From contig JAKSIY010000007.1 in the NCBI GenBank assembly GCA_024398535.1, positions 1 through 41,151 on the forward strand: a DNA stretch of 41,151 bases. Reading direction: 5' to 3'. The position numbers and the translations under genes are program-made. Source of the DNA: Bacteroidaceae bacterium. Its GTDB lineage: Bacteria > Bacteroidota > Bacteroidia > Bacteroidales > Bacteroidaceae. Below are positions 5,919 through 9,407 of this stretch, in pieces (positions within the stretch are counted from its first letter, which is position 1; every line of letters starts with the position of its first letter). The notes below the pieces were generated by a model, which worked only from the letters and a program-made list of their open reading frames with translations, had not been told where the DNA came from and did no database searches.

Positions 5919-7886
5919 TCAATCTTTAGTTACAAGAATACGCAATCTGTACTCATCAAACGATACCTCTTCACCCTGCTGCATGTCAGCAACCAGTGTC
6001 AGGGAGTTTGCAAGAACCTGCTCCTTGATCCACTCCTGATACTCAAGGATTGCAGCATCGGTGCTTGAATCTGAAGAAATCTGAACGCTGATGCGGTCTG
6101 TAATCTCAAGACCGGTTGACTTGCGCAGATCCTGGATTCTCTTCTTGAGCTCACGGGCAATACCCTCACGTTTAAGGGCATCGGTCAGCTGGATATCAAG
6201 CGCAACGGTAAGAGTACCCTCATTTGACACTACCCATCCTGGGATATCCTCGCTGAAGATCTCAACCTCTGTAGTATCGATAGTAGCATCAGTACCATTG
6301 ATATTGAAGGTAAAGCTGCCTGTATTCTCAAGCTGGGCAACCTCTTCCTGACTCATCTGCTGGACAGCAGCAGCCACACCCTTCATCAGAGGACCGAACT
6401 TCTTGCCAAGAATCTTGAAGTTACACTTAACTTTCTTGACCAGGACATTCGTTGAACCCTCAACGAACTCAACCTCCTTTACGTTCACCTCGCCACGGAT
6501 AAGCTCCTTGACAGGCTCAAGATGGCTGCGGAGTTCTTCAGTGACAGGAATCAGAATCTTCTGCAGAGGCTTGCGCACGTTTATCTTCACGTCGTCACGC
6601 TTACGCAGAGCCAGAGTCATTGAAGTGATCTTCTGTGCAAGCTCCATACGGGTCTCAAGCTCCTTGTCAACAATTGAATCGTCGCACTCCGGGAACTTGG
6701 CCAGATGAACCGAATCTGCAGTGTTGCGACCGGTAACAGCATTCAGGTCACGGAAAAGCTGGTCAGCATAGAACGGAGCTATAGGAGCCATCAGCAGTGA
6801 CATTGTCTCAAGACAGGTATAAAGGGTCTGATAAGCAGCAAGCTTGTCCTGATCCATTGCGCTGCCCCAGTAGCGGTCACGTGTCAGATGAACGTACCAG
6901 TTTGACAGATAGTCATTTGCAAAGTCTGTTACCAGACGGAATGCAAGTGTTGGCTCATAGTCATCAAGGCTGGCCCTGACCTCCTTGATGAGAGAGTTCA
7001 GCTCACTCAGTATCCAGCGGTCCATTACAGGACGCTCTGCAACAGGAATCTCCTGCTCAGAATAGCTGAAGCCATCAACATTGGCATACTGGGCAAAGAA
7101 CTTGTATGTATTGTGAACGGTTCCAAAGAACTTGCGGACAACATCCTTTACACCCTCCTCATCAAACCTGAGGTTATCCCAAGGCTGGGCATTGGTAATC
7201 ATGTACCAGCGCAGAGGGTCGCTGCCGAACTTCTCAATCTCGCCGAATGGGTCAACGGCATTGCCAAGGCGCTTTGACATTTTGTTGCCGTTCTTGTCAA
7301 GAACAAGACCGTTTGAGATGACAGCCTTGAAAGCCTGACTGCCGCGTACCATAGTTGAGATTGCGTGCAGCGTATAGAACCATCCACGGGTCTGGTCAAC
7401 GCCTTCTGCAATGAAATCTGCCGGATATACACGGCCACTGTCAATCAGTTCCTTGTTCTCAAACGGGTAGTGCATCTGGGCAAACGGCATGGCACCGCTA
7501 TCAAACCAGACGTCAATCAGGTCAAGCTCACGCTTCATTGGACGACCGGCCTCAGAAACAAGCACAATGTCATCAACATACGGACGATGCAGGTCAATCC
7601 TGTCATAGTTCTCGGCAGTATATACGCCAGGAACAAAGCCCTTCTCCTTGAACGGATTAGCCTTCATTACACCAGCAGCAACAGACTTCTCTATCTCTGC
7701 ATAGAGTTCCTCAACAGAACCGATACAGATCTCATCGCCACTGTCATTGCGCCAGATAGGCAGCGGAGTACCCCAGTAACGTGAACGGCTCAGGTTCCAG
7801 TCATTAAGGTTCTCAAGCCACTTGCCGAATCTTCCGGTACCGGTTGACTCCGGCTTCCACTTGATGCTCTGGTTGAGAGTAATCAT
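5919..7886 (-). CDS. ileS: IleS C-terminal fragment (KMSKS and anticodon domains)
   Basis: The 3' half, 655 residues if started at the in-frame ATG at 7886. It opens with the typical KPESTGTGRFGKWLENLN stretch. SRSRYWGTPLPIW then resumes the catalytic core, KMSKR (residues 202-206) is the second signature, and the helical anticodon-binding domain and C-terminal extension follow. The ATG at 7886 is an ordinary internal Met in intact family members, so independent translation is doubtful. The stop is 6 bases before dksA. Confidence 0.72.
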   Translation of the reverse strand: MITLNQSIKWKPESTGTGRFGKWLENLNDWNLSRSRYWGTPLPIWRNDSGDEICIGSVEELYAEIEKSVAAGVMKANPFKEKGFVPGVYTAENYDRIDLHRPYVDDIVLVSEAGRPMKRELDLIDVWFDSGAMPFAQMHYPFENKELIDSGRVYPADFIAEGVDQTRGWFYTLHAISTMVRGSQAFKAVISNGLVLDKNGNKMSKRLGNAVDPFGEIEKFGSDPLRWYMITNAQPWDNLRFDEEGVKDVVRKFFGTVHNTYKFFAQYANVDGFSYSEQEIPVAERPVMDRWILSELNSLIKEVRASLDDYEPTLAFRLVTDFANDYLSNWYVHLTRDRYWGSAMDQDKLAAYQTLYTCLETMSLLMAPIAPFYADQLFRDLNAVTGRNTADSVHLAKFPECDDSIVDKELETRMELAQKITSMTLALRKRDDVKINVRKPLQKILIPVTEELRSHLEPVKELIRGEVNVKEVEFVEGSTNVLVKKVKCNFKILGKKFGPLMKGVAAAVQQMSQEEVAQLENTGSFTFNINGTDATIDTTEVEIFSEDIPGWVVSNEGTLTVALDIQLTDALKREGIARELKKRIQDLRKSTGLEITDRISVQISSDSSTDAAILEYQEWIKEQVLANSLTLVADMQQGEEVSFDEYRLRILVTKD

Positions 7887-7964
7887 GCTCTCCTTCGTCG
7901 ACCTGTCCCTGATGAGCCACCTGTCCTGAGGCTAATGCAGCACATGCCTGTCTGTACGCCCGCC
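7887..7964 (-). other. Scrambled tract within ileS with repeated GGACAGGT
   Basis: This segment keeps the ileS frame and length but departs from the family consensus at about 15 codons, including the TAG. Two GGACAGGT octamers occur in direct orientation on the minus strand (ACCTGTCC at 7901-7908 and 7919-7926 on the plus strand). The 10-mer ACCTGTCCCT at 7901-7910 is identical to bases 1-10 of the window palindrome. Immediate flanks (CACAACTACCCACAT and the codons from ATG at 7886 on) are normal. Confidence 0.65.
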
Positions 7965-9407
7965 ATGTGGGTAGTTGTGCACGTGCTTCTCTCTCTTGAA
8001 TGCAAGGCCTGCCTGCTTCATGCGGATACAGATGACAACATTCAGGTCCTCATCTTTCTGGGCAGCAGCCTCATCATACTTGCCGTCCTTGTTATACTTA
8101 GGATCATAAGCATTCTTGACGTATGCCCCCTCATACTCCTTGTAGAGATTCTGGTCGATGCAGTTCTCAACGAATGAAGGATCAAGTTCGTCAAGCATCC
8201 AATACTTGCCGGTAAAGTCAACCATTGGACGGGTCTCCATCTTGCGGTTGATCATGAAGAGTGACGGGATACCGGCTGCCTTGGCAACGAAGGCATCGTC
8301 TGCGCCAAAGGTTGGAGCAATGTGTACGATACCTGTACCGTCCTCGGTAGTTACGTAATCGCCAGGAATTACACGGAAACCGGCATCGCTGGTCTTGATT
8401 GTTCCATCCTCATCCTTGAACACAGGCTTTACCCATGGGAAAAGCTGCTGATAATGCATGCCTACCAGGTCAGAACCTTTGTACTCAGCAACAATCTGAT
8501 AAGGAATAACCTTGTCACCCTGCTTGTATGAGTCCAGAGGAAGTTCTGCACCCTTTGGATCAAGGTATGCATTAACACGCTCCTTGGCCATGATGGCAGT
8601 GACAGGCTGACCGGTGTACATGTTGTATGTGCGGACTGCTACGTAGTCAATCTTGTTGCCTACGCAGAGTGCGGTATTTGAAGGAAGTGTCCATGGAGTT
8701 GTGGTCCAAGCCAGGAAACACGGTGTGCCCCAGCCTGTCATCTCTGGCTTAGGGTCAGTCATGACGAACTGGGCGGTCACTGTCGTGTCCTTGACGTCAC
8801 GGTAGCAGCCTGGCTGGTTCAGCTCATGGCTTGACAGCCCGGTACCGGCAGCCGGCGAATATGGCTGGATGGTATAGCCTTTATACAGGAAGCCCTTGCC
8901 GTGCAGCTGCTTGAGCAGCCACCACAGTGTCTCAATGTAGCGGTTGTCATAAGTAATGTATGGATTGTCCAGGTCCACCCAGTAACCGATCTTCTGGGTA
9001 AGCTCACTCCAGCGCTCCTTGTATTTCATGACCTCTGTACGACAGTTCATGTTGTAGTCGTCAACAGAAATCTTATGGCCTATATCCTCTTTGGTAATGC
9101 CCAGATTCTTCTCAACGCCAAGCTCTACAGGAAGTCCATGGGTATCCCAGCCAGCCTTACGGTTGACCTGAAATCCGCACATGGTCTTGTAGCGGCAGAA
9201 ACAGTCCTTGATGGTACGAGCCATGACATGATGGATACCCGGCATGCCATTGGCAGATGGAGGTCCCTCATAGAAAACAAATGACGGACATCCCTCTCTC
9301 TCCTTTATACTGCGTGCAAACAGATCCTCCTTGAGCCATTCGTTCAAGACATCTTTGTTAACCTGTGAAAGGTCAAGCTGGCTACGTTCTGCAAATTTCT
9401 GATTCAT
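7932..9407 (-). CDS. ileS: IleS N-terminal fragment (HIGH and editing domains)
   Basis: The 5' half of the interrupted synthetase, about 491 residues from MNQKF. It contains the class I HIGH-equivalent GIHH at residues 57-60 (context SANGMPGIHHVMA) and the start of the Rossmann core (KAGWDTHGLPVE). The CP1 editing domain follows, with WTTTPWTLPSNTALCVG and the GTGIVHIAPTFGADD motif that hydrolyses mischarged Val-tRNA. It ends in the scrambled tract. Alone it lacks KMSKS and the anticodon-binding domain, so it cannot aminoacylate. Confidence 0.75.
   Translation of the reverse strand: MNQKFAERSQLDLSQVNKDVLNEWLKEDLFARSIKEREGCPSFVFYEGPPSANGMPGIHHVMARTIKDCFCRYKTMCGFQVNRKAGWDTHGLPVELGVEKNLGITKEDIGHKISVDDYNMNCRTEVMKYKERWSELTQKIGYWVDLDNPYITYDNRYIETLWWLLKQLHGKGFLYKGYTIQPYSPAAGTGLSSHELNQPGCYRDVKDTTVTAQFVMTDPKPEMTGWGTPCFLAWTTTPWTLPSNTALCVGNKIDYVAVRTYNMYTGQPVTAIMAKERVNAYLDPKGAELPLDSYKQGDKVIPYQIVAEYKGSDLVGMHYQQLFPWVKPVFKDEDGTIKTSDAGFRVIPGDYVTTEDGTGIVHIAPTFGADDAFVAKAAGIPSLFMINRKMETRPMVDFTGKYWMLDELDPSFVENCIDQNLYKEYEGAYVKNAYDPKYNKDGKYDEAAAQKDEDLNVVICIRMKQAGLAFKREKHVHNYPHGGRTDRHVLH

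Follow-up and report, generated by a model that had tools for sequence, protein, structure and literature searches.

The ileS gene and its in-frame stop

The window analysed here is a whole contig (C90) of 41151 bases, taken from a draft genome that totals 2,255,122 bases in 122 contigs and has an estimated completeness of 81.56%. Its nearest relatives among the genomes compared are species of one genus, with about 81% DNA identity in ileS, and the closest named kin found by this gene are metagenome-assembled genomes of Bacteroidaceae and Bacteroidales, many of them from ruminant guts and horse faeces. From this kinship, and from the state of the draft, we infer that it is itself metagenome-assembled. 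For rpoC (TIGR02386), 34 of 37 genus genomes have a match and this draft has none.

The gene for isoleucyl-tRNA synthetase, ileS, lies on the minus strand of the window and is interrupted by one in-frame TAG. The stop splits the catalytic domain, that is, PF00133 matches on either side of it, and Anticodon_1 and DUF5915 are found in the C-terminal half. The features discussed below are as follows.

5919..9407, minus strand: ileS (isoleucyl-tRNA synthetase; TIGR00392, 944.2 bits), with one in-frame TAG inside
7867..7993, minus strand: in-place tract of clustered substitutions, about 127 nt, of the same length as in relatives
7932..7934, minus strand: in-frame TAG at codon 491 (counted from 0), in a column that is Tyr in 22/22 closest relatives
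7919..7926, minus strand: first copy of the octamer GGACAGGT, starting at 7926, probably there by chance
7901..7908, minus strand: second copy of GGACAGGT, starting at 7908, probably there by chance

A stop inside ileS was found in this genome only, among the 35 of 37 genus genomes with a match over the family cut-off (a few of the others being fragments). The first-pass annotation had called for a search for a second ileS, and none was found in the assembled part of the draft; in none of the genus genomes do the matches listed include two full copies over the cut-off. Three genus genomes have, again among the matches listed, a second long match to the ileS family below the cut-off, of 355-367 bits, which we took for valS.

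Extent, density and base composition of the tract

For comparison, 108 ileS frames were reduced to 84 sequences by dropping duplicates and open frames of less than 1100 aa, and a close set was formed of the 22 proteins with more than 78% identity to that of the window; at least one member of the genus, L029, falls outside this set. The first-pass annotation had described a scrambled stretch with a TAG inside ileS in which frame and length were exactly kept, and such a stretch is present on the minus strand where it had been placed. The protein alignment needs no gap across it, the frame and length are kept, and the changes are substitutions only. The limits given at first, 7887 to 7964 with clean flanks, were too narrow: the first change lies at 7993 and the last at 7867, and the flanks are clean only beyond these.

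At the 759 columns that are invariant in the 22 close ileS proteins, the window departs at 20, of which 11 fall within codons 471-503, or 33 of the 1162 codons of the gene; the other 9 are at the remaining genus-invariant columns outside the tract. The densest 26 codons of the window hold 10 departures, and the highest count in any of the 22 relatives, each left out in turn, is 4. When departures were weighted by BLOSUM62, the top 16 codons scored 64 in the window and at most 30 in the relatives. Like a pseudogene, the gene has an in-frame stop and altered residues in its catalytic domain; unlike one, it is constrained over the rest of its length, with the damage confined to one stretch and not spread, and a pseudogene under relaxed selection was rejected on this basis.

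The nucleotide counts agree with those from the protein. Of the sites at which 90% or more of the 22 relatives agree, 20/87 are changed between 7867 and 7993, compared with 86/2140 in the rest of ileS (Fisher p 1e-9), and among fully invariant sites the figures are 12/71 and 22/1720 (p 1.6e-9). Private bases, a less demanding count, separate the tract less: it reaches 13 per 60 nt, and L020, the relative that diverges most, has 11. Within the tract the sequence averages 67% nucleotide and 52% protein identity to the relatives, compared with 78-81% and 82-90% in the flanks; across the same stretch the relatives share 84% nucleotide and 92% protein identity with one another. The sequence of the stretch is matched in 35 of the 36 other genus genomes, and all 29 genus loci examined carry the intact motif. 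The first-pass annotation had recommended alignment with the nearest ileS genes, in case the tract should be a fixed feature of intact homologues; it is absent from the relatives examined.

At conserved sites in the tract, changes at codon positions 1, 2 and 3 numbered 7/36, 9/40 and 4/11, compared with 30/926, 22/992 and 34/222 outside it. The changes in the tract are blind to codon position, which indicates that selection has not acted on them. The process behind the tract was blind to the protein, the tract has gone unfiltered since, and the rest of ileS is ordinarily constrained. On the coding strand the original bases that were changed are T 7, C 7, G 4 and A 2, and there is no adenine bias on either strand. 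Changes of non-G bases were to G in 8/16 cases in the tract and in 13/59 outside, and a conserved G was replaced four times in the tract, three times by A and once by T. The transition/transversion ratio in the tract is no different from that outside (p 0.80).

Interrupted genes and substitution clusters elsewhere in the draft

Stops inside genes were surveyed in 316 kb of the draft, a non-random sample consisting of the window and 8 contigs already matched in earlier searches; an interruption was called where open stretches of 100 codons or more adjoined each other in the same frame. Three such genes were noticed, namely ileS, lon and a susC-like gene, and the interrupting stop is TAG in all three. 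The two that lie outside the window are listed here.

G000:C68, about 33996 (L213), minus strand: lon, with a TAG among a few closely spaced changes at conserved columns, in comparison with 29 relatives
G000:C2:26133 (L218): susC-like gene, with a lone TAG and no tract, at a position where 7/11 relatives have Gln

In lon, 7 columns that are near-invariant in the 29 relatives are changed within 14 codons, one of them to TAG, and the alignment is gapless there; some ten codons beyond the cluster lies ordinary divergence with a two-codon length difference. Among the 33 genus genomes over the cut-off, a stop inside lon was found in this one only. The lon tract is similar to that of ileS and statistically weaker: 8/27 conserved sites are changed, compared with 133/1323 (p 0.005, for a tract chosen after the fact), and another 26-codon window of lon also holds 7 departures, in milder replacements (BLOSUM 45 vs 28). 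Two of the lon controls, L237 (67) and L246 (64), score above the lon of this genome (45). Both were rejected as in-place, in-frame tracts, since the stretch in L237 is an unlike one near the start of the frame and that in L246 is in another frame. Some further irregularities were seen in related drafts: lon is split over two frames in G016:C8 at about 124110, probably by a frameshift; G012 has a second partial lon match on another contig (G012:C67); and a long class I synthetase match, leuS by our reading, has one TAA inside (G017:C23:53655-54110).

A tract detector was run over 24 ortholog groups covering 6895 codons of this genome, some of the groups being chance frames on the wrong strand. 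Within conserved genes, the ileS tract was this genome's only clear outlier; the 24 groups did not include lon, probably because it had been displaced by an overlapping chance frame. The related draft G017 has, in a faster evolving gene, a window that equals the ileS tract in density (10/14), and windows of 9/14 and 8/11 were found in poorly conserved genes of this genome (background departure rates 0.35 and 0.31); all three were read as ordinary divergence in weakly conserved or faster genes and rejected as tracts. For 16 of the 34 genes in the window at least 4 orthologues were present in the fetched stretches, and ileS alone shows such a tract; next come weakly conserved genes, with windows of 9/22 and of 8 out of 15 to 17 invariant columns. 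As the 24 groups and the 16 window genes gave no further clear tract, damage of this kind does not occur throughout the draft.

Origin of the tract

The tract is a sharp outlier with respect both to the relatives and to the rest of ileS, as it would be if the mutations were real and had arisen very recently in one cluster, by a process such as error-prone repair synthesis, in a strain that is now dying or that uses a second isoleucyl-tRNA synthetase outside the assembly. An assembly that is 81.56% complete leaves room for such a gene, but its assembled part holds none, no listed genus genome has two full copies, and the comparable tract in lon would require a second event of the same kind. To our knowledge, some 20 conserved-site changes in 127 bases between intact flanks are more than single error-prone events leave, and we regard this account as unlikely. 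Very unlikely, too, is that a single process in this species rewrites short pieces of coding DNA in place, with neither indels nor a template, and has produced both the ileS and the lon tract as real features, the cells surviving through a mixed population or through unassembled spare copies; we know of no process that rewrites essential genes in this way. We consider slightly less probable again that gene conversion, a template switch or a small inversion copied some other sequence over ileS, perhaps the genome's own repeat containing GGGACAGGTC. The genome has 49 copies of AGGGACAGGTC from this repeat, one of them inside the tract, compared with 2 of a reversed control; a 17-base stretch of the tract matches the repeat family with one mismatch, GACAGG occurs in the tract three times (20/2000 redraws have as many), and the two GGACAGGT octamers pointed out in the first-pass annotation are present. 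The octamers stand out weakly at most, the match to the repeat family being equalled in 96/1500 redraws on the same strand and 100/1500 on both strands; a first, cruder control had given 6/400, and the better-matched one was used instead. The match also covers just part of the ileS tract and the lon tract has none (score 9.5), and the repeat was rejected as donor. In the draft's own assembly, where the first-pass annotation had proposed to look for a donor, the tract finds only itself and short matches of 14-32 bases, and conversion was rejected on this ground, whether from another class I synthetase or from elsewhere. The search for a foreign donor was equally negative in 61 genomes, with the ordinary ileS signal (80% over 90 bases) as the best other match, in phages, where no record matches, and in plasmids, where two records at about 75% are again the ordinary ileS signal. 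Many substitutions in one short stretch are also what short-range template-switch clusters produce, but exact local templates covering several of the changed sites, direct or inverted, were no better than in redraw controls; inverted and shifted templates were equalled by 175 and 183 of 200 redraws. The inverted-repeat content of the tract is unremarkable (124/300 redraws are as high).

That the interrupting stops of ileS, lon and the susC-like gene are all TAG could suggest that TAG is read as an amino acid, by recoding or suppression. Readthrough would leave the remaining changed residues as they are, however, and the columns replaced by TAG differ, being Tyr in ileS, Lys in lon and, in 7/11 relatives, Gln in the susC-like gene. 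TAG is also the normal terminator of 5 of the 34 genes in the window, and a pattern for CUA anticodons, a crude one that misses unusual tRNAs, had a single match over the incomplete draft, a tRNA-Leu with anticodon tag that reads CTA codons; we hold recoding to be extremely unlikely. The probability of targeted mutagenesis, for instance by a diversity-generating retroelement, is close to negligible. The first-pass annotation had named templated mutagenesis as a candidate, and dense substitutions free of indels in a bounded stretch are in keeping with it, but the base preference fails, the changed bases showing no adenine specificity on either strand, no template copy of the tract was found in the assembly, and the core of a tRNA synthetase is an implausible target for such an element.

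Two genes, ileS and lon, are broken in place in one incomplete draft, the relatives examined are clean, selection has not acted and no donor was found, and together these observations point to a poor local consensus. The ileS tract is most likely not a real feature of the organism, and a local consensus error in the draft genome is very probably its explanation. This was one of three candidate causes in the first-pass annotation and is the one that fits best, with the similar, weaker tract in lon adding to it and the incompleteness of the draft and its missing rpoC match in keeping with it. About 127 bases of the contig would derive from a single poor short read, or from very few, with a burst of miscalled bases, bridging two well supported flanks. 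As nearly all short-read errors are substitutions, frame and length would survive while conserved residues would be overwritten at random and a stop could arise; the ileS of the living cell is most likely an ordinary one. Low depth, read errors, platform and assembler are all inferred within this explanation. Known errors of low-depth short-read metagenome assembly resemble the tract in being substitution-only, length-keeping and confined to a short stretch in a clean contig, and the draft has its weaker second case; the tract differs from them in being unusually dense, with 20/87 conserved sites changed in 127 bases. Against a consensus error, assemblers usually discard k-mers seen only once, so that some 20 errors in a row would seldom come through; the weaker statistics of lon, the lack of further clear tracts and the unchanged transition/transversion ratio also count against it.

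The draft was presumably built with a short-read platform and an assembler of the kinds described in two papers. The part of PMC4787001 that deals with Illumina errors reports that they favour G, that those at G are mostly to T, and that substitutions outnumber indels about 1000-fold; the share of changes to G in the tract agrees with this, and the changes from G (three to A, one to T) go against the preference given there. MEGAHIT removes k-mers seen once and rescues some of them, according to a passage in PMC8021871. If the tract is an artefact, in-place substitution tracts in the housekeeping genes of draft genomes can pass for pseudogenes or hypermutation and go unnoticed in completeness statistics.

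No copy of GGGACAGGTC was found in 15 related genomes, in stretches adding up to about 709 kb. In the draft, the repeat built on GGGGACAGGTC occupies positions 1-59 of the window, at the left end of the contig, and occurs in about 49 places (for example L122 1459-1561, L117 1483-1513 and L120 705-736). At 15 of the 30 repeat loci examined, no frame of at least 150 aa runs across the copy. The repeat takes the form of tandem units of about 22-23 bases and also of palindromes; it presumably resembles a REP-type family, with no transposase tied to it.
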